This document shows positions 1 through 12,653 of a stretch of DNA of 64,000 bases, in pieces (the first letter of the stretch is position 1; each line of letters starts with the position of its first letter). Below the pieces are notes generated by a model that saw only the letters and a list, made by a program, of their open reading frames with translations, ran no database searches and was not told the DNA's origin. This DNA is from Adhaeribacter soli (GTDB lineage Bacteria > Bacteroidota > Bacteroidia > Cytophagales > Hymenobacteraceae): positions 62,001 to 126,000 of the forward strand of contig NZ_VTWT01000002.1 of the NCBI RefSeq assembly GCF_008727925.1. Reading direction: 5' to 3'. The translations under genes and the position numbers were made by a program.

Positions 1-470
1 TTTGCAACTGAAAGGTCAGGCAGGTTGCCGGAAGTTTCAGACGCCTCCGTTGCCTGGTTAACAATAGCCTGGCCTGAATTTTCAACAGAAACCAGTACTT
101 CTGTTTGACTAGCTTCCGGACGAACGCGCTCAGTAGCTCCTGGAATTATGGCGGATCCGGAAGCGGCGCTTATGGTGTTCTGGGCGGATACGGCAGTTTT
201 TTCGGGCGTAGCGGTACTGTTTTTAAGCAGCTCCGGCTTGGTAAACAGCACTACGTTAACGGCCGTTACTAAAATAGCGGAAGCAACAAACCCCAGTTTT
301 CCGAGGCTGCCTCCTACAGTTTTAGCGGCAGCAGCAGGTGCGTTTGGCTGGGTGCCCTGAAAATTATGCAGCTGGTCTTCCAGCCTGTCCCAATCGGCAG
401 GATTATAGTCAGGCTCGGGCATGTTTTCGAGAGCCTGCTGAATGAACCGATCGAAGTCTTTATCTTGCAT
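1..470 (-). CDS. Anti-sigma-factor-like membrane protein, 3' end beyond window
   Basis: An open frame reads from ATG at 470 leftward off the window edge (about 156 codons visible). The start MQDKDFDRFIQQALENMPEP followed by a Trp/Asp-rich segment (PADWDRLEDQL) is typical of the cytoplasmic end of Bacteroidota anti-sigma partners. A hydrophobic segment at about residues 63-80 (LGFVASAILVTAVNVVLF) is a single membrane pass. The visible part beyond it is Ser/Thr/Ala-rich and low-complexity, presumably periplasmic. The ATG lies inside the 3' end of the sigma-factor gene (11-nt overlap, 460-470), so the two are translationally coupled. An anti-sigma role is inferred from position and topology; no named domain was recognised. 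Confidence 0.7.
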   Translation of the reverse strand, partial: MQDKDFDRFIQQALENMPEPDYNPADWDRLEDQLHNFQGTQPNAPAAAAKTVGGSLGKLGFVASAILVTAVNVVLFTKPELLKNSTATPEKTAVSAQNTISAASGSAIIPGATERVRPEASQTEVLVSVENSGQAIVNQATEASETSGNLPDLSVA

Positions 471-1029
471 AACTGGTTCTGTTTTCTCTATCGGAGTGAG
501 CAATCATTTTCTGTAACTTCATGCGGGCTTTAAATAAATTCGATTTAGAAGCCCCTTCGGAGATCTGCAGTTTTTCTGCAATTTCCGGATGGGAAAAACC
601 TTCGATCACGTGAAGGTTAAAAACCAGGCGGTAAGCCGGCGATAGTTGCTGTACCATAGCCAGAATTTCTTCGGCCGAAATGGTATCCAGCACATCCTCA
701 ACCCCCAGCTCAGCTTCTGCGTAAACCAGATCGAGGGAATGGTAGTGTTTGCTGTTTTTGCGGTAATGATCGATGGCGGTATGCACCATAATCTTGCGCA
801 GCCAGCCTTTAAAGGCTTTATCGGGCTGGTAAGTGTTAATATTGGTAAATACTTTCATAAATCCGTCGTTCAAAATTTCAGCAGCTTCTTCGCGGCTGTC
901 GGAATACCGCAGGCAAACCCCCATCGAAAACCCGTAAAACTTCTTGTAGAGCATCTTCTGGCTTTTCAGATCGCCGCGAATGCACCCTTCAATCAGTTCT
1001 TTTTCAGAAATTTCTACCGTTGTACTCAC
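460..1029 (-). CDS. ECF-type RNA polymerase sigma-70 factor
   Basis: 189 aa, usual ECF length. Region 2 is visible at about residues 20-95 (YKKFYGFSMGVCLRYSDS, then a DGFMKVFTNI stretch and FKGWLRKIMVHTAIDHYR). Region 4 lies at about 120-175 (LSPAYRLVFNLHVIEGFSHP, then a helix-turn-helix in EIAEKLQISEGASKSNLFKA). The start codon is GTG (1027-1029), giving MSTTVEISEKELIEG. It overlaps the downstream anti-sigma-like gene by 11 nt, so the pair is probably one operon. ECF factors of this kind direct RNA polymerase to a small regulon under control of a membrane partner. The regulon cannot be read from this window. Confidence 0.93.
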   Translation of the reverse strand: MSTTVEISEKELIEGCIRGDLKSQKMLYKKFYGFSMGVCLRYSDSREEAAEILNDGFMKVFTNINTYQPDKAFKGWLRKIMVHTAIDHYRKNSKHYHSLDLVYAEAELGVEDVLDTISAEEILAMVQQLSPAYRLVFNLHVIEGFSHPEIAEKLQISEGASKSNLFKARMKLQKMIAHSDRENRTSYAR

Positions 1030-1339
1030 GCAGGTTTCGAGGTTTTAAGCTGTTTGTAATTATAGGTCGTATAAATTTCCGCAACAGTTGCCAGCTATAA
1101 AAACTTTTTTCTTTTTATTTCTGAATCAGGCCTTTAAAAAAGCGGCGATTTAAAAAGAGGTCGGAAGAAATAAAGCAGGGGTTGCCTCGTGAGAAAAAAA
1201 AATTATTTTTTTTTCCTTTTGTTCGTTTAAAAGCCACCAAACTCAGAAATCTGGTTTGGTTCGCAGCGGCTGCACGTTGGGATTTAAAAGGCCGGGCGGG
1301 CCATTAGAACAGATTTTCAGAAAAGTGCGGGCAAAAAAA

Positions 1340-1998: not shown

Positions 1999-3519
1999 CT
2001 AAAGCTTACTGAATTTAACGGTTTGTTTAATTGTATTACCATCCAGGAGCCTGGCAACGTACTGTCCCGGAGCAAACTTACCGGCATTGGTCCATTTTAC
2101 CCCATTGCCTGCCTCTTCCTTCTTCACAGGTATCTGGTCTATTTTCTGCCCTAAGGCGTTGTAAATTATTATTGTCTGTTCAGAGGCCGGGCTGCGGTTT
2201 ATTCTAAAGGAAACTTCGTTTTTGAACGGGTTCGGATAGGCTACAAATTCCAGCGTATTCTTTGTGCTTTCCTTGATTCCGGTTACTGCGCCTGAAGCGC
2301 TAACCCGCACAGCAAAAGTATACGTCTGGAAACCTCTTACCGGACAAGCATTGTCTTTTACAGTCACGTGAAAGAAATAAGGCCGGCTTCTTACATTAGC
2401 CGCGGTGGGCGTCCAGGAAACAGTTCCGCCGGGTTGAGCGCCCTGCACTACCGTAAAGCTGGCATTGGGGAGCATGGTGGCTGCATTTGAGCTTATTTCC
2501 AGCACATCGGCCGGGTTCTGATCGGAGGCATTGAACTGGAAAGTAAGCGGCGAGCCCGGCCGGAGTTCGATCACGCTTGCAGGGGCCAGGGTTACGCCAT
2601 TTGCGGTTACGCCTGCAATTTTAGGATTGAGATTGGGCGCCGAATCTATTACATGGATTACCATATCCCGCCTTACATGCCCGATCTTTTGCATGGTGCC
2701 GCCTACCTTTCTATATTCATCTGCCTGCACAACTGCGAAATAGAAATTTGCCCCCGAACCGGGATTACCGGCCTGGAAAGTGGTGGGAATAAAGCTCATG
2801 CTTCCGTTTTCAGGGTCGAGCCTGATCGGAGCAAGTGTCGGAATAAAATTCTGGGCAGAAAAACCCTGCAGGTATTGGACCGGAGTATTGGCATCTGAAA
2901 GCGCAGGTTGTAAACTATAAACTACAGAATCGCCATCCGACTCCAGGGCAAAAGCAGTTAGCCCAACCTGATTGTTTAACGCAACAAATGGCGGCTCCAG
3001 ATCCATAAACTGGGGCGAACTATTATTCAGGCCGGCGCTTAAATTCAGATAGGCTTCGGTGTAAAGGCAATTTACGCCCTGCAGGTTGGCCGAATTAGGC
3101 CGGTCACATTCCAGAAGGCTTATAAACCAATCCGGGCACGAGGCTTCGGCAGCCGTAAAGGTTACATTTCCAGTATATAAAACCTCTTCGTAATTAAATG
3201 CCTGAGCAGACCCGGTGCAATTATTCGGGCCCGTGGCACAATAAGGTTGCGCAATACGGTTATTCCCGGCTTTATTCAGCGTAATTTGCTTTTGCCCGAT
3301 GGCAGCCCCGCAGGTATTTGCCTTTGCGATGGCTGTAAAAGCGTTATTTAACTGCGCCATTCCGCAGACCCGGTAATATTTCAGGCTAATAATGTACATA
3401 TTGGGAGCCACACAAGAATAGGTCAACTCCGAGCCTGACATGTGCGATGCAAGCACCTGCCTTGAATAACCGGCAACCACCATCGTTAGCAGCAGCAATG
3501 AAAGTAATTTCTTTTTCAT
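1999..3519 (-). CDS. T9SS type A cargo protein, paralog 1 of the array
   Basis: 506 aa. A signal peptide (about 1-24) is followed immediately by ASHMSGSELTYSCVAPNMY, the opening of a Cys-containing extracellular module shared by four other genes here. An acidic, cadherin/Ig-like stretch (about 300-405, ending in SWTPTAANVRSRPYFFHVTV and VKDNACPVRG) precedes the T9SS sorting domain at 428-506, with YPNPF, IIIYNALGQ, GQYVARL and a basic KFSKL end. The protein is predicted to cross the outer membrane through the type IX system and be attached to, or released from, the surface. A terminator follows at 1931-1976. Export is well supported by the domains; the binding or structural role is unknown. 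Confidence 0.92.
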   Translation of the reverse strand: MKKKLLSLLLLTMVVAGYSRQVLASHMSGSELTYSCVAPNMYIISLKYYRVCGMAQLNNAFTAIAKANTCGAAIGQKQITLNKAGNNRIAQPYCATGPNNCTGSAQAFNYEEVLYTGNVTFTAAEASCPDWFISLLECDRPNSANLQGVNCLYTEAYLNLSAGLNNSSPQFMDLEPPFVALNNQVGLTAFALESDGDSVVYSLQPALSDANTPVQYLQGFSAQNFIPTLAPIRLDPENGSMSFIPTTFQAGNPGSGANFYFAVVQADEYRKVGGTMQKIGHVRRDMVIHVIDSAPNLNPKIAGVTANGVTLAPASVIELRPGSPLTFQFNASDQNPADVLEISSNAATMLPNASFTVVQGAQPGGTVSWTPTAANVRSRPYFFHVTVKDNACPVRGFQTYTFAVRVSASGAVTGIKESTKNTLEFVAYPNPFKNEVSFRINRSPASEQTIIIYNALGQKIDQIPVKKEEAGNGVKWTNAGKFAPGQYVARLLDGNTIKQTVKFSKL

Positions 3520-3835
3520 AGTCTTTCTTTAAATTTTCAGGATCATTCTTTTTAATTCTTAGCCCGCTTGCCTGGCCAAGAATTAGTGTTTAGGGAAGTG
3601 TTATTTTTCTGACCAGACAAGCATTTAGCAGAAAGGGTTGCCTGACCAGGGAATTATCCGGTTCTTTTTTTCAGAGATATTTCCGGAAACTTATAGATCG
3701 CTTTATATGGTGTCCGGTTTTTACAATGCAGCCTAGCGAAAAGCATTATCCGAAATCACCTGTAAAAGAAAAAACCCGTGCATGAGCCGGGCTTTTTCTT
3801 TTAATTTCAACTTAAAACTTCGCTTTATTTCTGTA
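3520..3835. other. Intergenic region between paralogs 1 and 2
   Basis: About 316 bases without a gene. The only clear structure is the paralog-2 terminator at 3765-3801. No TAnnTTTG box was found in the part upstream of paralog 1. Confidence 0.6.
3765..3801 (-). terminator. Terminator of T9SS cargo paralog 2
   Basis: An extended stem pairs AAAGAAAAA...CCCG (3765-3778) with CGGG...TTTTTCTTT (3788-3801) with one mismatch. The loop is TGCATGAGC. Confidence 0.8.
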
Positions 3836-5458
3836 TTAGAGTTTGGTGAACTGAATGGACTGAACCACCTGATTACCGCTTAGCAGCCTGGCCACATACT
3901 GCCCTTTTGCCATCCGGCTTCCTTTCTCCCAAACCACCTGCTTCTGCCCGCTTGCTATATTTTTCAGCATGATCCGGTCTACCTGCTGGCCTAAGCTGTT
4001 GTAGATAACAATCTCCTGATTTACCGTGGCGTTTGCCTGCACTTTAAAGCTAACCGTTTCGGTATACGGGTTCGGGTAAGCTACAAAGGTAAGGCTCTTG
4101 CTGAGTTCTTCTTTGGTGCCGGTTACAGCTCCTGTATTACTTACCCGCACGCCAAAGGTCTGGGTCTGATGGCCTTTTACCGGACAGGCATCGTCCTCTA
4201 CGGTTATGTGGAAATAATAGACCTGGTCTCTTACATGGTTAACCGTTGGGGTCCAGGCAATGGTACCGCCTGGCTGGCCGGTAGTAGAGGGCGTAAAGGT
4301 GGCTCCCAGTAATACCGAAGCAATGTCACTCGAAAAGGTAAGTACATCATTCGGGTTGCCATCGGCGGTAGTAAACTGGAAATTCATAGGCGTGCCCGGG
4401 CGAAGGTTGATGATGGTGCCTGGGGTAAGCGTTACCCCATTGGCGGTTGGAGCAGTTACCTTTGGGTTCTGGTTCGGGCCACAATCCATGAGCGTTACAA
4501 ACATGTCGCGGCGCACATAACCTACTTTTACCGGTACGCCGTTAATCTTCCGGTATTCGTCTACCTGTACCACCATAACGTATTTGTTTGCCCCCTGCGC
4601 GGAGGGAGTGTTAGGCACATAATTGGTTGGTGTAAAGGACATAGAGCCGGTCTGGGTATCGAAAAGGAAATTCTTTACCGCACTTGGGCTAGGCTGGCTC
4701 CAGTTAACAGCATAGGAATGCAGCGGAAAGGCAGCACTAAAAGACCCGGCTGGGGCCGTTGCGTACTGACTGGTATTTGGGTTTAGGATGGTAACCTGCT
4801 GATATGACTGGTAAGGAACGAAAGTACTGGCAGAATTCATTGGTTCTTTTAAGCTGTAAACCAGGGAATCGCCATCAGGATCGTTTGCGTAGCTGCTCAT
4901 AATAATTGGCATGTCTTTATTTACAAACGGTATTAATGCGCCTCCAAATATGGGCGAATTGTTGTTTATTCCGGCTGCAAGATTCAAATAAGCTTCTGAG
5001 TAAGGGTCATCCTGACCAACGAGGTTGGCAGAAGACGGCCGGCAGCACTCGGACCAGGAAAGATTCCAGTCCGGGCAGTTTCTTTCAGCGGCCGTAAAGG
5101 TTACAGTGGCCGAAAAGGAAACAAATTCGAAGTTAGGCTGGCCCGCGGAAGTACACTGGGGTGCTCCAAGCTGCGGACAGTAAAAGTTACCAATGGTATT
5201 GGATCCCGAGCTTTTGGTCATTTGCACAGTCCGGGTAGTACCGCAGCCCTGCGGCCTTAAGTTTAGAACGGCAGTGGAGGGGGCGGTAGAACCGGAGCAG
5301 TCGCGGTATAGTTTGAGGTTAACCGAATATAAGCCCGGTGCTACACAGGTATACGTTAATTCGGAGGCCTGAAAATGTGTAGCTGCCACGTTATGGGAGA
5401 ATCCGGCTAAAAACAAGGCTGCTGCTCCAGCAAATAGATTGCGTATCTTTTTCTTCAT
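3836..5458 (-). CDS. T9SS type A cargo protein, paralog 2
   Basis: 540 aa. Signal peptide about 1-26, then ATHFQASELTYTCVAPGLYS and the conserved KLYRDCSG segment. The middle carries an NDPDGDSLVYSLK motif, and QVDEYRKINGVPVKVGYVRR is nearly identical to the equivalent stretch in paralog 1. An Ig/cadherin-like domain (about 335-440) ends with DDACPVKGHQTQTFGVRV. The T9SS sorting domain spans 461-540 (YPNPY, IVIYNSLGQQVD, GQYVARL, QFTKL). Same role prediction as its neighbours: secreted, surface-associated, ligand unknown. The gene has its own terminator at 3765-3801. Confidence 0.92.
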   Translation of the reverse strand: MKKKIRNLFAGAAALFLAGFSHNVAATHFQASELTYTCVAPGLYSVNLKLYRDCSGSTAPSTAVLNLRPQGCGTTRTVQMTKSSGSNTIGNFYCPQLGAPQCTSAGQPNFEFVSFSATVTFTAAERNCPDWNLSWSECCRPSSANLVGQDDPYSEAYLNLAAGINNNSPIFGGALIPFVNKDMPIIMSSYANDPDGDSLVYSLKEPMNSASTFVPYQSYQQVTILNPNTSQYATAPAGSFSAAFPLHSYAVNWSQPSPSAVKNFLFDTQTGSMSFTPTNYVPNTPSAQGANKYVMVVQVDEYRKINGVPVKVGYVRRDMFVTLMDCGPNQNPKVTAPTANGVTLTPGTIINLRPGTPMNFQFTTADGNPNDVLTFSSDIASVLLGATFTPSTTGQPGGTIAWTPTVNHVRDQVYYFHITVEDDACPVKGHQTQTFGVRVSNTGAVTGTKEELSKSLTFVAYPNPYTETVSFKVQANATVNQEIVIYNSLGQQVDRIMLKNIASGQKQVVWEKGSRMAKGQYVARLLSGNQVVQSIQFTKL

Positions 5459-5677
5459 AGGTAGTAGGTAAAAGGTGATGAACCAGGTGTTAAATTAGTT
5501 AAACCGTTATAATAACAAAACAACAGATCATTAAATATTTTAACACCCTGCTTTAAACCGGAAGACACGCCTTTTTCCTATCGGGTTGCCTGGAGCAGAA
5601 AATATTTTAAAAAAGTTAAAACAAGGCTTTCAGCTTTAATTTCCTTCCTGCTTTTTTACCCGGAATCGTAGCGTTTT

Positions 5678-5813
5678 AAGTAGCAGGACGCTTTAAATTG
5701 CATTACCCTGATTGTTATTCTGAAAGAAACTTTTGGATTAGAAGCACGGAAATCACAAGTTCCTTTCAGGATAACAAAGTGGGGTGGCTGCGTTTATAAC
5801 GGTCCTGCTACTT
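5678..5813. repeat. Nested inverted-repeat element in the 3' region of paralog 3
   Basis: This sits in the 353-base gene-free stretch 5459-5811. Outer arms AAGTAGCAGGAC (5678-5689) and GTCCTGCTACTT (5802-5813) are perfect complements. Inner arms of 19 nt (5712-5730 and 5759-5777, TTGTTATTCTGAAAGAAAC type) match at 17 of 19. The right outer arm overlaps the stop codon of paralog 3 (5812-5814). Related copies lie near 15601, 17642 and 25322. It may double as a terminator. Confidence 0.75.
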
Positions 5814-7485
5814 ACTTTACCTTCATAAATTTAATTGCCTGGATTGTTTTACCGCCGGAAACCAGCCTGGCCAGGTACGTTCCGGCGGCATGCTTGCCGG
5901 CATTTTCCCAATTAATGTTTTGCTCACCAATGCCTGCATGCTTTAAAGGAATCTGGTCTACCTGCTGGCCCAACAGGTTATAGATAATGATGTTTTCTGC
6001 TTTTGCCTTCAGGTCCAACCTGAATTGCAGCTCGCTGGTAAACGGGTTCGGATAGGCCAGGAATTTTCCGGCAGCGCTTAACTCCTCCTGGTTCCCTAAA
6101 GCCGTGCCGATATTGCCTACCCTAACCCCGATCAAGTAGGTTTGTTTGCCGGAAATGGGGCAGAAATCGTCTTTTACGGTAAGGTAGAACCACTTTATCT
6201 GGCAGGTTGGCCCGGCAGCGGTCCAGGAGATGGCGCCGATTGGATGAGTGGCAGAACTGGTAGAAAAAGTAGCTCCGCTCAGCACTGAACTTACGTCGGA
6301 TTCTACCGTCAGTACATCAGTTGCCTGGTCGGCGGTGGCAAATTGCAGGTTAAGCTGGGCGCCAGGCCGGATCGTAATCACCTCGCCGGAACTTAAAGCT
6401 TTGCCGTTAACCATTAGGGAAGTGAAAGTCGGCAGTTTATTTCCGGCACAATCTTCTACCTGGAAAAGCATTTCGCGGCGAACGTGCCCTACCTTGGTCA
6501 CTACCCCGCTTATTTTACGCCATTCAATCACCTGCACACTTACCGCATAACTGATATTGGCTGCAACAATGGGGTTATAAGCAGCCGGCTTAAAATTCAG
6601 GACCCCGGTTACCGGATCTAGTTTAAAGTATGGAGCGGCAGTAACTATTTTCGGAGGAATTCCGGTAGCCGGATCCGGTACATTCCAGGGAGCAGAAAAG
6701 GAAGGTATCGGATAGGCCACGCTATAGGCATTTCCTAATCCTTGCAAGATCGCAAATTGCGGATTGGTGGAAGTATTATAAGGCGGAAGCGGATTTGGAT
6801 TTACGACAATGGTGCCGCCAGGATTGCCGCCAATTGGAGCATAAGGAACCGGGGTTCCGCTGGCTTTTAGGGGCTGTGCCAGTTCGTAAGACACCGAGTC
6901 GCAATCGGCATCGGAAACAGCAAAATTCAGCATAATCTCTTCGCCTACGCATACCAGCGGCCTGGCCGGCGCAACCTGGTTGAACACGGCGCCATTATTG
7001 CCGACGGCTAAATTGAGATAAGCTTCGGTGTACACATCATCATTACTGTTACTGATCAGATTCATGGTAGGGGCACGGCTAGGTTGGGTTACACTTAACA
7101 GCCAGTCCGTGCATGCCTGCTCGGCGGCCGAGAAGGTTACCACGCCGGTATATTCCACTTCTTCGTGGTTACGCCGGCCGGGGCCTGTGCAGCCATTCCC
7201 AACAGCCGGGCAGTACGGGTCGCCAAATCGCGAATTAGCCGACTTGGTCAGGGTAACCGAACGGCCGCTGGTACAGCCTGTTGTCTGCAGGTTCAGGTTG
7301 ACCGTATTTGCCATAGTTGCCCCGTTACAATCGCGGAAGCCGGTGTAACTTACCAGGTAGCTATTCGGGCCCAAATGCTGATAGGTGATGGTAGCCCCTA
7401 AAAAATGGGAGGCCAGTGCCTGGATTGGCCCGAAACCAAATATTGCTAAAAACAAAAGCAGGAGCATTGGAGCGGTCTTTTTCAT
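5812..7485 (-). CDS. T9SS type A cargo protein, paralog 3
   Basis: 557 aa, the longest of the array. Signal peptide about 1-25, then ASHFLGATITYQHLGPNSYL and GFRDCNGA. The central segment PDPATGIPPKIV, preceded by PNPLPPYN and QFAIL, is shared with paralog 5 but not with 1 or 2. This suggests 3 and 5 form a subgroup. The Ig/cadherin-like domain (about 365-465) ends with KDDFCPISGKQTYLIGVRV. The sorting domain spans 478-557 (YPNPF, IIIYNLLGQQVDQIPLK, GTYLARL, KFMKVK). The stop codon lies inside the right arm of the inverted repeat at 5678-5813. Secretion is well supported; the function outside the cell is not known. Confidence 0.92.
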   Translation of the reverse strand: MKKTAPMLLLLFLAIFGFGPIQALASHFLGATITYQHLGPNSYLVSYTGFRDCNGATMANTVNLNLQTTGCTSGRSVTLTKSANSRFGDPYCPAVGNGCTGPGRRNHEEVEYTGVVTFSAAEQACTDWLLSVTQPSRAPTMNLISNSNDDVYTEAYLNLAVGNNGAVFNQVAPARPLVCVGEEIMLNFAVSDADCDSVSYELAQPLKASGTPVPYAPIGGNPGGTIVVNPNPLPPYNTSTNPQFAILQGLGNAYSVAYPIPSFSAPWNVPDPATGIPPKIVTAAPYFKLDPVTGVLNFKPAAYNPIVAANISYAVSVQVIEWRKISGVVTKVGHVRREMLFQVEDCAGNKLPTFTSLMVNGKALSSGEVITIRPGAQLNLQFATADQATDVLTVESDVSSVLSGATFSTSSATHPIGAISWTAAGPTCQIKWFYLTVKDDFCPISGKQTYLIGVRVGNIGTALGNQEELSAAGKFLAYPNPFTSELQFRLDLKAKAENIIIYNLLGQQVDQIPLKHAGIGEQNINWENAGKHAAGTYLARLVSGGKTIQAIKFMKVK

Positions 7486-7695
7486 AGATATGCAACTTTG
7501 TAAAAGATGGAGAAAATTAAACAGGCGCGTTATAGTGGATCCGGTATTGGCCTGAAGAAGGGCTGAATTATTTAACCTATAACATAAGGCCCTTCTGAAA
7601 GCAAGTCGAATGTTAAGGTATTAACCGTTGCCTGCTGCTTTAATTTTCTGTGAATTATTTTCCGCCTTTTAAAGCCGGCATAAAAGCGAGCTCAC

Positions 7696-7716
7696 ACCCC
7701 GGTTGCCGGGGTTTTT
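7696..7716 (+). terminator. Plus-oriented terminator without an obvious gene
   Basis: A perfect 7-bp stem (ACCCCGG, loop TTG, CCGGGGT) is followed by a T-run (7712-7716). The nearest annotated genes on either side are on the minus strand, so the transcript it would end is unknown. Confidence 0.5.
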
Positions 7717-7884
7717 AAGCTATAAATGCTATCGTTTTCAGCCGGACAAGTGAACCTGTATGTAGGAGGTAAAACTGAACGATATGCTAAGAACAAACTT
7801 ACAATTATGCTTATCTGCATTGGCCTAACCAACTTTTGCAACAGGCTCCTACCCTTTCCCAAGTCGCATAGATCCCAATAAAAA

Positions 7885-7924
7885 TTCCCTGCCGGAAAAG
7901 AAAATTAACTATTTCGGCAGAGAA
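7885..7924 (-). terminator. Terminator of T9SS cargo paralog 4
   Basis: A stem TTCCCTGCCG/CGGCAGAGAA (7885-7894 with 7915-7924, one mismatch) has an A-run at 7880-7884, read as a U-tract on the minus strand. Confidence 0.55.
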
Positions 7925-8006
7925 TTAAGGCGGCTTCCGGCAAAACCGGTTAAGAAACGTCTAAGAAGCGGGTTTCCGGAAAATGTATTGAACTGTTTAC
8001 TAACGC

Positions 8007-9029
8007 TTATTGAATTTTCATGAATTTAATGGTTTGTACTTCACCTGCCGGGCTAACAAGTTTTCCGAAATATTGACCGGCCGGCATTTGCGGAGCTTTT
8101 TCCCAACGGATATCCTGTTCGGCTGAAGTACCGGAAGAAACTAAAATGCGATCTACTTCCTGCCCTAAGGCGTTGTAAATTAATAGCTGGCCGCTGCTTT
8201 TCTGGTCTACTTTAAAAGTAAGTTGGCTGGTAAAAGGATTGGGATAAGCCTGGATTGGTTTCGTCTGGGTTACCTCCTGCCTCACTCCCGTTACGCCGCC
8301 GGCATTGCCTACGCGCACATTAAACGTGTAGGTGTACTGTTTGCCACCGGGAACGCTGCTGTCCTGCAACGAAACGGTAAACGTAAAAGGTTGGGCGTTT
8401 ACATGCGAAGCCGTTGGCACCCAGAAAATAGCTGCGGTCTGCTGTTTGGCATTATCCGTTATAAAAGTAGATCCCGGTAAAACGGAAGCTACATTGGAAG
8501 TAATCCTGATAGAATCGGTCAGGTTTGGATTAAGGCTGCTTACGCTTAAATTAAAGGGCGAACCGGGCTGAAGCTGAATTTCTTCGTTCAGGTTTACGGG
8601 GTTGTTGTTTAAAGTAATGCTGCCTGGTTTGTTTACCCGGATCCTTAAATGGTTAGAGGAAATCCCCCTGATTGGTGAGGCATTATCATCAATCCCTACC
8701 AAAATCATGTGGGGCTCCAGCCTGACATCGGCATTTGTGGGAATCCACTGAATTTGTAAAACAGGTTGCTTCGAATTACTTAAAGTATAGGTTGCCGTTG
8801 GCAGCACAGTAGCTAAATCTGTTGAAATGGATATAGAATCTGTTGAATTGGGATCGTAAGTAGAAAGGACCAGATGCATGGTATCGCCAGGGAACAACTC
8901 TATAATCTGGCTAAATGGTATTGCCTTATTCTTAAAGAATAAGCCGCCAGCAGGCATTTGGTTTCCCTGCGCAAAAGCATTAAACCCTAAGGAAAGCAGA
9001 AGAACGGAGAGAGCGAATATTTTTTTCAT
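8007..9029 (-). CDS. Short T9SS cargo protein with two Ig-like repeats, paralog 4
   Basis: 340 aa. A signal peptide (about 1-20, ending FNAFAQ) leads directly into two tandem Ig/cadherin-like repeats (about 38-130 and 143-240). Both carry the pattern P-G-D/S...DSI.I.....S.LP..T followed by W.PT...V. The Cys-rich ASH/ATH N-terminal module of the other paralogs is absent. The T9SS sorting domain (262-340) is intact (YPNPFTSQLTF, LLIYNALGQEVDRIL, GQYFGKL, KFMKIQ). It is probably a functional short family member, made by loss of the N-terminal module and duplication of the Ig-like unit, rather than a pseudogene: no frameshift is visible. Confidence 0.9.
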   Translation of the reverse strand: MKKIFALSVLLLSLGFNAFAQGNQMPAGGLFFKNKAIPFSQIIELFPGDTMHLVLSTYDPNSTDSISISTDLATVLPTATYTLSNSKQPVLQIQWIPTNADVRLEPHMILVGIDDNASPIRGISSNHLRIRVNKPGSITLNNNPVNLNEEIQLQPGSPFNLSVSSLNPNLTDSIRITSNVASVLPGSTFITDNAKQQTAAIFWVPTASHVNAQPFTFTVSLQDSSVPGGKQYTYTFNVRVGNAGGVTGVRQEVTQTKPIQAYPNPFTSQLTFKVDQKSSGQLLIYNALGQEVDRILVSSGTSAEQDIRWEKAPQMPAGQYFGKLVSPAGEVQTIKFMKIQ

Positions 9030-9046
9030 AACGGTAGTAGTTTAAT

Positions 9047-9054
9047 CAAAAGTA
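9047..9054 (-). promoter_or_regulatory. Putative -7 box of paralog 4
   Basis: TACTTTTG on the minus strand matches the Bacteroidota TAnnTTTG box, 17 nt upstream of the ATG. No clear -33 TTTG at 19 nt was found. Confidence 0.4.
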
Positions 9055-9139
9055 GGTTGTAATATTTTCAGCGCCTTTATAAACCAGTCGGGAGAAACTG
9101 GCAAAGAGTTGCTTTAACATGAAAAAAAAGCAACAAAAA

Positions 9140-9169
9140 AAAAACCGGAACAATGCTGTTCCGGTTTTT
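9140..9169 (-). terminator. Terminator of T9SS cargo paralog 5
   Basis: A 13-bp perfect stem AAAAACCGGAACA/TGTTCCGGTTTTT with loop ATGC, flanked by a long A-run on the left. Confidence 0.85.
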
Positions 9170-9195
9170 ACTTTTCCTGCCTTAAACATTACTGT

Positions 9196-10839
9196 TTACT
9201 GGAGTTTGGTGAATTTGAGCGTTTGGGTGATTTTATTTTCGGAAATTAGTTTTGCCAGGTAAGTTCCGGTAGCAAACTGCGGGGAACGCTCCCATTTTAC
9301 CACCTCCTCTCCGGAGCTGGTCGCTTTTACCAGGATCCGGTCTATTTCGCGGCCCTGCAGGTTATAGATGATAATTTCCTGCGGCATGTTCGCTGCCTTT
9401 ACCCGGAAGCTTACCTCTCCCCTGGAAGGATTGGGGAACGCTAAAAAGGAGGTTAACTGTTTATCAGAACTGATACCCGAAACTGCGCCGCTGTTGCTTA
9501 CCCGGAGGGCAATTGTTTCTACACGGGAGCCGGAAAACGGGGAAGCGTTATCCCGGGCCCAGATGCGCAGGTAATAAGGCTGCGACCGCACCTGGGCGGC
9601 AGTAGGCGTCCAGGTAATGGTGGCGGTCTGGCGCTGGGCGCCTCCTATTGTAACTGTAGCTCCCTGCAAAGCAGTGGTTGCATTGGTTTTCAGGTAAACC
9701 GAATCGGCAGCATTCAGATCGTCGGCGTCTACCTGAAGCGAAAGGGTACTGCCAGGGCTAACCGTTAAGATTGTATTCGGCTGCACCGGCGCATTGTTCA
9801 GCCGGGTGTTGGTAAGCGTTGGGTTGTTGTTTTGTCCGGCATCACCCACCACAATAATGGTTTCCCGGCGTACCGACCCGATTTTAGTTGCTACGCCGTT
9901 TATTCTCCGGAACTCATCTACCTGAAAGGAAGCCAGATAAATGTTATTGCCAGAAGAGTCGGAGATAATCGGATTAAAGGTGAGCGCTCCGGTTAAGGAA
10001 TCGAGAATAAAATACTGGTTTCCGTTTACAATTTTAGGCGGAATTCCGGTAGCCGGATCTGGTGTATTCCAAGGTGCGATATATGAAACTAAAGGGTAAT
10101 GCGGAGACAAGGTTGAAGCTGCATTGGGTAATATAGCAAATTGCTGATTGGTGGTTGAATTGTAGGGTGGCAGCGGATTCGGATTAACAACTATAGAAGT
10201 ATTGTAGCTCACATAATTCGTTACCGGCTGATTATGTCCCGTTAAAGGCGCTGCCATCCGGTAAACCAGCGAGTCGCCATCCTGATCGTATGCGGCCACG
10301 CTCAGCGTAATCGGCTGGTTTATGTTGGCGATTAAAACCGGGGCATTCATCGGGTCAAACATCGGGGAGGAACCGTTATAAATGGTATGGTCCAGTTTAA
10401 GGGTAGCTTCGGTGTAAATATCCAGCTGGTTCGGAGTTTGGGTCAGATTGGCACTTTGCTGGCCTTTCCGGTGGGTTGCCACGCTCAGAAGCCAATCTTT
10501 GCAAGTAGCTTCCGCAGCAGTAAACGTTACTGTGGCCTGCAGCACCGAGATTTTATAAGGCATAAGGCCACTGGTAGTCGGCACTTTACCGGCAACCCAC
10601 TCGTTCTGGAATTGCATGGGAACGGACCGGCCGGTATTACAACCCGGAGCGCTGATCTGGAGGTGAATAGGACTTGACATGCCGCTTAGTCCGGCCCAGT
10701 TGTAGTGCGAGTAGGTAACTACATAAGTATTGGTCGTTACTTCCACAAAAGAAATATCGCCGCCAATGTCGTGCGTGGCGTATGTATTTAAGGTACTCCC
10801 AGCCATTAGGGCACAAAACAATAGTAAGATCTTTTTCAT
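9196..10839 (-). CDS. T9SS type A cargo protein, paralog 5
   Basis: 547 aa. Signal peptide about 1-21, then ATHDIGGDISFVEVTTNTY. In the N-terminal module the usual RDCSG block is replaced by YNWAGLSG, so a Cys conserved in paralogs 2 and 3 is missing. The central part (PNPLPPYN, QFAIL, PDPATGIPPKIV) matches paralog 3. The Ig/cadherin-like domain (about 345-455) ends with ARDNASPFSGSRVETIALRV, where Ser replaces the Cys of other paralogs. The sorting domain (468-547) carries FPNPSRGEVSF, IIIYNLQGREIDRIL, GTYLAKL and KFTKLQ. The paired loss of both Cys is consistent with a lost disulphide, which is inference. Confidence 0.92.
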   Translation of the reverse strand: MKKILLLFCALMAGSTLNTYATHDIGGDISFVEVTTNTYVVTYSHYNWAGLSGMSSPIHLQISAPGCNTGRSVPMQFQNEWVAGKVPTTSGLMPYKISVLQATVTFTAAEATCKDWLLSVATHRKGQQSANLTQTPNQLDIYTEATLKLDHTIYNGSSPMFDPMNAPVLIANINQPITLSVAAYDQDGDSLVYRMAAPLTGHNQPVTNYVSYNTSIVVNPNPLPPYNSTTNQQFAILPNAASTLSPHYPLVSYIAPWNTPDPATGIPPKIVNGNQYFILDSLTGALTFNPIISDSSGNNIYLASFQVDEFRRINGVATKIGSVRRETIIVVGDAGQNNNPTLTNTRLNNAPVQPNTILTVSPGSTLSLQVDADDLNAADSVYLKTNATTALQGATVTIGGAQRQTATITWTPTAAQVRSQPYYLRIWARDNASPFSGSRVETIALRVSNSGAVSGISSDKQLTSFLAFPNPSRGEVSFRVKAANMPQEIIIYNLQGREIDRILVKATSSGEEVVKWERSPQFATGTYLAKLISENKITQTLKFTKLQ

Positions 10840-10965
10840 AGAATTTTAAGTTGCCGCTGCATTCAGTATAAAATAGCGCTGCTTTTGCCTCCGGATAGCG
10901 GTGCAGAAAACCATTTATAATAACAGGTCGTGGAATATAATAAAACCGTTGCCTTACCCCTAAAA

Positions 10966-11007
10966 AAAAGTAAAGGCCGGTACAGCAATGTACCGGCTTT
11001 TACTTTT
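10966..11007 (-). terminator. Terminator of T9SS cargo paralog 6
   Basis: A 19-nt stem with a GTAAAGGCCGGTACA arm and its complement, one G-U pair, loop GCAA. T-run to 11009. Nearly the same sequence as 1931-1976. Confidence 0.85.
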
Positions 11008-11026
11008 TTGCCTTAAACAATAGCGT

Positions 11027-12529
11027 TTACCGGAGCTTGGTGAACCGGAGCGTTTGGGTGATATTGTTTTCAGAAATAAGCTTTGCCAGGTAGGTGCCGG
11101 CAGCATATTTTCCGGCCTGCTGCCACTTTACCTGCTGGTTTGCTAATTCAGCAGCGCTCACCGGAATCATGTCTATTTCCTGGCCCTGTAAGTTGTAAAT
11201 AATAATTGCCTGTACTTTTTCGGGGGTCTTCAGGCTGAAAGTTACGCTATTGGTAAATGGATTAGGAAAAGAGGTAAAATACCGGGCTTGTTCCGTCTGG
11301 TTCTTTACTCCAAGCAAATTGCTGGAAACCCTGATCCCGACCATCTGGGTGGAAACACCTTTTACCGGGCAGGCATTATCGATCGTAGTTATGGGTAACC
11401 AATATAAGCCTTCGTTGGCAAAGGTTACGCTCAGGCTTCCGGTTGGGCGGTTGCCGCTACTGGTAGTAAAAGCCGGGAAATTCAGACCCTGACCAGGATC
11501 CTCAATAGTAACGATATCGGCGGCATTCGGATCGACGGTTTCAAATTGAATGCTCACCTGACTGCCGGCAGCCACTGCTGCTATTCCGTTCGGGGGCAAA
11601 GGCTGATTGTTTACAGTAATATTCGTTGCTTTGGGATTCTGATTGGGCGTATTGTTTACCACCGCAACCGGGATCTGGCGCTGGGTGGTGCTTACCCGGG
11701 TCATTACCCCGTTTATTTTTTTAAAACCGCTTGCCTCAATAACAACTGCATAGGCATTCGAGAAAAAATTTCCCTGATTAAAAACATTCGGCGTAAAGCT
11801 TAAAAGACCGGACTCCGGGTGCAAGGTTACTCCCCCAACAGAAGGAATAGGGTTAGAGAAGGACATTCCAGGGGTATAGGCAACGGGCGTGTTGGCATTA
11901 GACAGGACAGGCTTTAAGGCATATCCAATAGAATCGAGTCCGTCTGTGGTTCTATCCTGCACCAAGTTTGGAATAGTGGCGGGCGAGTTTACGGTAAAAT
12001 ATAAGGTGGGTACCCCCATAAAAACCGGCGAAACGCTATGATTAACAGCTGCCGCTGTGGTATTAATGTATGCTTCCAGGTATAAAAGACCGTTTGACGA
12101 TGCCGTGCCATTCAGGTTGGCCATTTGCGCTACGGCCCATTCCTGTACGCTTAAGTAATATCCCTGGCACTGACCGGAAACTGTAAACGTACCCGAAAAA
12201 ATTATTTCGGTAATCGTATACGGCGAGTTAAGGGTACAATTATTACCTACTGAGGTACAATAGGATTGAATAACCTTACTTCCAGCGCGGTTAACGTTAA
12301 TGATCTGATTTGCTGCGCAACCCGGAGAGCCCAGGTTTAACTGCATGGACTGAATCTGGGGGGTTGCATTATTTGCGCAATCATAGTAGGTTTTGTATTC
12401 GGCCATGTAAGTATTGGGCGCAACCGGGAAATAACCGATCTCGGCCCCTAAAAAATGCGAAGCATTACTGTTGCCGGCACACAGGCAGACCGCAAACACC
12501 AGCCATAAAAGCGTAGAAGTTTTTTTCAT
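11027..12529 (-). CDS. T9SS type A cargo protein, paralog 6
   Basis: 500 aa from the ATG at 12529. The frame is open 120 nt further upstream, but the MKKTSTLLWLVFAVCLCAGN signal peptide begins here and matches the MKK starts of the other five paralogs. After cleavage the protein opens with ASHFLGAEIGYFPVAPNTYM and YYDCANNA. A QNPKATNI linker leads to a single degenerate Ig-like domain. VDPNAADIVTIEDP is followed by DNACPVKGVSTQMVGIRV. The sorting domain spans 421-500 (FPNPFTNSVTF, IIIYNLQGQEIDMIPV, GTYLAKL, RFTKLR). First gene of the minus-strand array in the direction of transcription. Exported surface protein of unknown ligand. Confidence 0.91.
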   Translation of the reverse strand: MKKTSTLLWLVFAVCLCAGNSNASHFLGAEIGYFPVAPNTYMAEYKTYYDCANNATPQIQSMQLNLGSPGCAANQIINVNRAGSKVIQSYCTSVGNNCTLNSPYTITEIIFSGTFTVSGQCQGYYLSVQEWAVAQMANLNGTASSNGLLYLEAYINTTAAAVNHSVSPVFMGVPTLYFTVNSPATIPNLVQDRTTDGLDSIGYALKPVLSNANTPVAYTPGMSFSNPIPSVGGVTLHPESGLLSFTPNVFNQGNFFSNAYAVVIEASGFKKINGVMTRVSTTQRQIPVAVVNNTPNQNPKATNITVNNQPLPPNGIAAVAAGSQVSIQFETVDPNAADIVTIEDPGQGLNFPAFTTSSGNRPTGSLSVTFANEGLYWLPITTIDNACPVKGVSTQMVGIRVSSNLLGVKNQTEQARYFTSFPNPFTNSVTFSLKTPEKVQAIIIYNLQGQEIDMIPVSAAELANQQVKWQQAGKYAAGTYLAKLISENNITQTLRFTKLR

Positions 12530-12653
12530 AGGTGCTTTTCGCTTAAGTGCATGATATTTAATTACTTCAACAGCTTTAAAAAGAGCATTCGGGAAAAAAC
12601 ATACGGGACCGTTGCCGGTAATACTATGAAAAAATACTGTAAATAACAAAAAA

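Follow-up and report, generated by a model that had tools for sequence, protein, structure and literature searches.

The window, a 64-kb stretch of DNA (C9:62001-126000) from the 4.97-Mb genome of Adhaeribacter soli, opens with a run of minus-strand genes that comprises the start of a membrane protein gene (P0007), an ECF sigma factor gene and six genes for proteins with T9SS sorting domains, here numbered as cargo genes 1 to 6. The coordinates below are those of the window unless a contig is named.

1 to 470, minus strand: start of a Dma-like, putative anti-sigma gene (P0007; whole gene C9:60911-62470, 519 aa), overlapping the stop of the sigma gene
460 to 1029, minus strand: ECF sigma factor gene, 189 aa, 87% identical in Adhaeribacter terrigena
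1999 to 3519, minus strand: cargo gene 1, 506 aa, signal peptide, N-terminal module, Ig domain, T9SS type A tail
3836 to 5458, minus strand: cargo gene 2, 540 aa, N-terminal module, Ig domain, type A tail; ortholog of A. terrigena C22:47668
5812 to 7485, minus strand: cargo gene 3, 557 aa, N-terminal module including a DPATGIPPKIV block, Ig domain, type A tail
8007 to 9029, minus strand: cargo gene 4, 340 aa, two Ig domains, type A tail, no N-terminal module
9196 to 10839, minus strand: cargo gene 5, 547 aa, N-terminal module including a DPATGIPPKIV block, Ig domain, type A tail
11027 to 12529, minus strand: cargo gene 6, 500 aa, N-terminal module, Ig domain, type A tail; two A. terrigena co-orthologs

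The six cargo genes are complete, co-directional reading frames, and all six products exceed the cut-off of 23 bits for TIGR04183, the T9SS type A sorting domain (31.6-36.8 bits), in line with the six tandem type A genes of the initial annotation. The count of six holds for the window and falls short for the array, which comprises at least eight cargo genes, including two long members of 764-766 aa with type B (CHU_C) tails that lie left of the window (C9:56048-60855, with module matches at C9:57281-60777 in an HMM search of the own genome); one of the two exceeds the TIGR04131 cut-off. The genes for the ECF sigma factor and the 519-aa membrane protein stand between the long and the short members, inside the array, where the initial annotation overlooked both of them as well as the common promoter described below. 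The genome carries at least 150 T9SS sorting domains, so that the presence of T9SS cargo does not by itself set this locus apart, and it encodes the T9SS machinery proteins PorU and SprA (NF033707, 1364.9 bits; TIGR04189, 2421 bits). The cargo proteins of the window are predicted to be exported by the T9SS to the cell surface.

Promoter-like sites of a single type, GGCAAC followed after 17 (18 or 19) nucleotides by a CGACCT- or TGTCTG-like element, are located about 60-160 nt upstream of the six cargo genes (one each) and of the sigma gene (two), as follows.

1064 to 1092, minus strand: site P2 of the sigma gene, GGCAAC-N17-CGACCT, ECF-type promoter-like
1158 to 1186, minus strand: site P1 of the sigma gene, GGCAAC-N17-CGACCT, ECF-type promoter-like
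3614 to 3642, minus strand: promoter-like site of gene 1, GGCAAC-N17-TGTCTG
5562 to 5590, minus strand: promoter-like site of gene 2, GGCAAC-N17-TGTCTT
7603 to 7632, minus strand: promoter-like site of gene 3, GGCAAC-N18-CGACTT
9085 to 9113, minus strand: promoter-like site of gene 4, AGCAAC-N17-CGACTG
10925 to 10953, minus strand: promoter-like site of gene 5, GGCAAC-N17-CGACCT
12586 to 12616, minus strand: promoter-like site of gene 6, GGCAAC-N19-CGAATG, among the weakest

The window holds six copies of the exact pattern, none of them on the plus strand or outside the array. The nearest named relative, A. terrigena BT258, which served as the sister species, displays like sites at its sigma gene and at six of its seven short cargo genes, and a matrix built from these sister sites alone recovers all eight sites of A. 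soli with scores of at least 14.8 each; the same matrix finds one other window site scoring at least 16, and shuffled sequence yields 0.47 such sites per window. Genome-wide, the two exact patterns outnumber the reversed-pattern control by 11 to 0 and 14 to 3 in A. soli, and by 12 to 2 and 12 to 1 in the sister. Six of the 20 unlinked exact sites in A. soli precede genes with T9SS tails, where about one would be expected if 5% of the genes encode cargo, an estimate drawn from the tails counted above; some of the unlinked sites are not near cargo. Outside the array the sites are kept at five gene pairs judged orthologous by reading of the sequences, including an unlinked long module gene. The housekeeping Bacteroidetes promoter, TTTG-N-TANNTTTG, was considered as well and discarded, with zero matches upstream of all genes scanned.

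The motif extends well beyond the genus, being found within 250 bp upstream of the sigma gene at 41 of 80 homologous sigma loci from Bacteroidota and Balneolota (0.4 expected), usually in the form GGCAACCCTTT-N-CGT. Since so many of these loci carry it, and since ECF sigma genes usually autoregulate, the motif is assigned to this sigma subfamily. The sigma protein comprises the domains Sigma70_r2, Sigma70_r4_2 and TIGR02937; the one pointer to a particular group, its Dma-like partner, suggests membership of ECF21. We do not claim orthology to the barrel-linked sigma factors of close relatives, as the sigma tree does not group the protein with those of Rufibacter, Pontibacter and Hymenobacter.

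Because all six cargo genes and the sigma gene carry sites, and the sister-trained matrix recovers all eight, the array is very probably the regulon of its own sigma factor. A self-contained cargo regulon, comprising the sigma factor, its autoregulation and the cargo promoters, is the best-supported reading of the locus at the level of sequence. Certain details within it are less firm. The long members of the array and the sister gene 59172 display no clear promoter site of their own, and the long members may be read from the sigma operon; the two variants of the -10 element, CGACCT and TGTCTG, may correspond to two sigma specificities; and other ECF factors of the genome could read similar promoters. 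An unlinked array-type module gene near a contig end (C14:343000-350416) displays no site in the short upstream stretch available. A conserved pair of lipoprotein genes, at C8:781818 in A. soli and C18:320154 in the sister, carries the same promoter site in both species; the lipoprotein is not T9SS cargo and is a possible non-cargo member of the regulon. A second tandem array in the A. soli genome (C9:577500-591000) consists of roughly nine type A T9SS genes from a different family; three of these have GGCAAC-type promoter sites.

The product of P0007 comprises, in order, (i) a cytoplasmic, anti-sigma-like N-terminus, (ii) one transmembrane helix, (iii) a low-complexity tether, (iv) an Ig domain, (v) an Ig_7 domain and (vi) a CHU_C tail (E 3e-22), which also scores above the TIGR04131 cut-off for T9SS type B. 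The N-terminus aligns with proteins encoded beside homologous sigma genes, with residues D3, D7 and W27 invariant in the 25 rows of the alignment and the transmembrane helix following at the same place; in P0007 the main hydrophobic stretch spans approximately residues 56-77, and residues 78-232, rich in A, S, G, T, N and P, come next. The first Ig domain matches the profile of the cargo Ig domains at 40-49 bits, its best matches in the own genome being gene 4, gene 1, the C14 paralog and gene 5, so that P0007 and the cargo share one Ig family as judged by sequence. The corresponding gene of relatives, which follows their sigma gene, specifies a protein with a short N-terminal region, a single transmembrane helix, a tether and an outer-membrane barrel. 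A barrel family was found in at least 56 of the 78 relatives scanned and a CHU_C tail in one, the sister; among the matches listed from 150 genomes of the family, only that of the sister covers the full length of P0007. The position of the gene and its conserved N-terminus are the grounds on which an anti-sigma role is proposed.

The strongest competing explanation, to which we still give a low probability, holds that the array is nothing more than T9SS surface proteins, adhesins or matrix components, multiplied in tandem by duplication, and that the sigma and P0007 genes are bystanders serving another regulon. The abundance of T9SS tails in this genome lends it some weight, as does the setting of the sigma homologues of other genomes, module cargo being seen beside them outside Adhaeribacter in a single weak case. 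A bystander pair is, however, difficult to reconcile with a motif that all window cargo genes share with the sigma gene, that is kept in the sister and that is typical of the sigma subfamily, nor would it account for a putative anti-sigma factor bearing a cargo-like Ig domain and a T9SS tail. As an observation from another genus of the same family (genome G024), two module cargo genes immediately precede another ECF sigma gene (L062:4388-8631), which is followed by an anti-sigma-like gene of weak similarity with a barrel-like end; linkage of module cargo to ECF pairs may thus have arisen more than once. This genome carries separate module arrays of four and two genes, upstream of which the motif was not found, so control by this type of sigma factor is not general.

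Somewhat less probable still, the T9SS-tailed protein beside the sigma factor might be an activator of it, or ordinary cargo whose N-terminus happens to resemble an anti-sigma factor, as could be argued from a Pfam scan of P0007 that returned no anti-sigma match, leaving the protein with no curated anti-sigma domain. Against both variants, the start of P0007 overlaps the stop of the sigma gene; its N-terminus, transmembrane position and putative tether match those of Dma-type proteins encoded behind homologous sigma genes; and its main hydrophobic stretch lies too far in to resemble an N-terminal signal peptide. Our preferred reading, a T9SS surface-protein regulon with its own sigma factor and a Dma-related, T9SS-tailed anti-sigma factor, is in our judgement probably correct.

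The cargo genes themselves are built around an N-terminal module of approximately 270-320 residues that begins with A[ST]H after the signal peptide and is common to genes 1, 2, 3, 5 and 6, the five for which it had been described; gene 4 displays two Ig-like repeats in its place. HMM matches to the module within the array reach E values down to 6e-143, therefore the resemblance is not due to chance, and unlinked module genes occur at C9:555k and on contigs C14, C1, C13 and C11. The label of a lineage-specific family does not suit the module, which is old and widespread, as 53 of the 59 genomes examined from the order contain it, the number of matches ranging from 0 to 15 per genome. A module gene on contig C4 of genome G009 (L076:4686-6205) is interrupted, its two parts lying in different frames and the search reporting internal stops; it is a probable pseudogene.

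The N-terminal module matches no named family in Pfam, NCBIfam or PHROGs, and no PDB sequence matched its profile significantly. In its AlphaFold2 model (mean pLDDT 85.5; 79.1 for the first domain modelled alone), the first half matches Ig-like sandwiches of a generic kind in the fold search, and the best structural matches of the second half are all cadherins (Z up to 6.7, rmsd 2.4 over 96 residues), a likeness that its D.DGDS.VY motif fits; Foldseek gave no match at E under 0.001. As the fold matches are only middling, no ligand or function is claimed for the module. The cargo proteins presumably belong to the cell surface or matrix and carry Ig/cadherin-like modules.

The turnover of the array can be followed by comparison of the locus in two species, A. 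soli and A. terrigena. In both, the array occupies the same gene interval, flanked by what we take, from reading the sequences, to be an EamA-like transporter and lipoamide dehydrogenase. Identity between the species amounts to approximately 64-95% in the syntenic flanks and 87% in the sigma factor, and only 36-54% in the members of the array, which comprises two long and six short genes in A. soli versus one long and seven short genes in A. terrigena. The tree of the N-terminal module groups (i) gene 2 with the sister gene 47668 (support 99/97), (ii) gene 6 with two sister copies (100/100), (iii) gene 5 with two sister copies (97/97) and (iv) the two long A. soli genes with each other, as a within-genome group (99/96), leaving genes 1 and 3 without a resolved partner. 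Of the expanding, variable array suggested by the initial annotation, the turnover is borne out, with one-to-one sister partners for some members only; the locus itself is old and syntenic in the genus.

Mosaic identity produced by recombination between copies had also been proposed, and the present data support it, because the two long members share an identical tract and because one block of the module is homogenised in each genome. The tract comprises the last 1,209 nt of the long pair and has distinct flanks on both copies, an assembly error being possible; beside it, the diverged N-terminal stretches alternate between approximately 55 and 98% identity. Within alignment columns ~220-320 of the module, identity is 46-75% within each genome versus 37-42% between genomes, whereas outside these columns the within-genome identity equals that between genomes; nor does each genome's set of copies make up a clade of its own. 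The DPATGIPPKIV segment, noted earlier in paralogs 3 and 5, is indeed found there and recurs in both long members outside the window, once as DPATGVPPKIV, giving four own copies; the sister has none, and three of its copies carry GQQVV at this position. Among the window genes, the DNA in common is limited to short stretches of 70-90% identity, so conversion among them is not recent. The pattern fits gene conversion, with the events in the long pair more recent than those in the six window genes.

That selection favours recombination between the copies for the sake of surface diversity within the species, making the locus a variable, antigen-like array, as the tract of the long pair and the homogenised block might suggest, is improbable, since an intact reading frame and a separate promoter-like site are seen for every gene, which makes all of them seem usable at once, and since conversion in the window is not recent.

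Under the regulon reading, the sigma factor would (i) activate its own gene, (ii) turn on each cargo gene separately through the GGCAAC-N17-CGACCT/TGTCTG promoters and (iii) turn on unlinked T9SS cargo genes elsewhere in the genome. P0007 would be a single-pass, Dma-related anti-sigma factor of the inner membrane, its outer end formed by a cargo-like Ig domain and a type B tail, that holds the sigma factor until this end is engaged, exported or displaced, so that cargo expression would follow the state of the secretion system or of the cell surface, and the cargo would have diversified through duplication, divergence and conversion between copies. More tentatively, and as a possibility that we do not regard as the expected outcome, an inner-membrane anti-sigma factor may have turned into a T9SS substrate, with the secretion system acting through the type B tail as the sensor that frees the sigma factor. 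Cargo synthesis would in that case be matched to export capacity or to the loss of surface cargo, and signalling across the envelope would proceed without an outer-membrane barrel. To our knowledge, little is established about how Bacteroidota choose among their many T9SS cargo; here a single locus brings together a sigma factor, a distinct promoter motif, a predicted set of cargo targets and a T9SS-tagged putative anti-sigma factor, which makes a coupling of export to expression directly testable.

With regard to known proteins and systems, a relative of gene 2, WP_324680343.1 from Hymenobacter sp. GOD-10R (22% identity over 75% of the length, tblastn), is annotated as "gliding motility-associated C-terminal domain-containing protein" and exemplifies T9SS cargo so annotated; it represents a single-gene type, whereas Adhaeribacter displays a tandem array with mostly type A tails and a common ECF-type promoter. 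The literature covered by our search, which lay outside most subscription journals, contained no description of a T9SS-tailed anti-sigma factor. Dma anti-sigma factors are reported to comprise an N-terminal sigma-binding region, one transmembrane helix, a long disordered tether and an outer-membrane barrel (PMC13088901). P0007 resembles them in adjoining an ECF sigma gene and in its anti-sigma-like N-terminus, single transmembrane helix, putative tether and C-terminal domain assigned to the outer envelope, and differs from them in carrying Ig, Ig_7 and T9SS type B domains instead of a C-terminal β-barrel and in its linkage to a T9SS cargo array, which suggests that the outer part of trans-envelope anti-sigma factors can be swapped, from barrel to secreted domain. 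In the PorA-PorXY-SigP system of Porphyromonas gingivalis, the T9SS-tailed PorA feeds into the ECF sigma factor SigP, which governs T9SS-related genes (PMC7712824). The two systems have in common a T9SS-tailed protein, an ECF sigma factor and T9SS-related target genes; PorA, however, is a separate surface protein that acts via a two-component system, whereas the Adhaeribacter tail sits on the putative anti-sigma factor itself, and SigP drives genes of the T9SS machinery, whereas the predicted Adhaeribacter targets are cargo. By analogy with both systems, a PorA-type tail and a Dma-type trans-envelope anti-sigma factor seem to be joined in a single Adhaeribacter protein.
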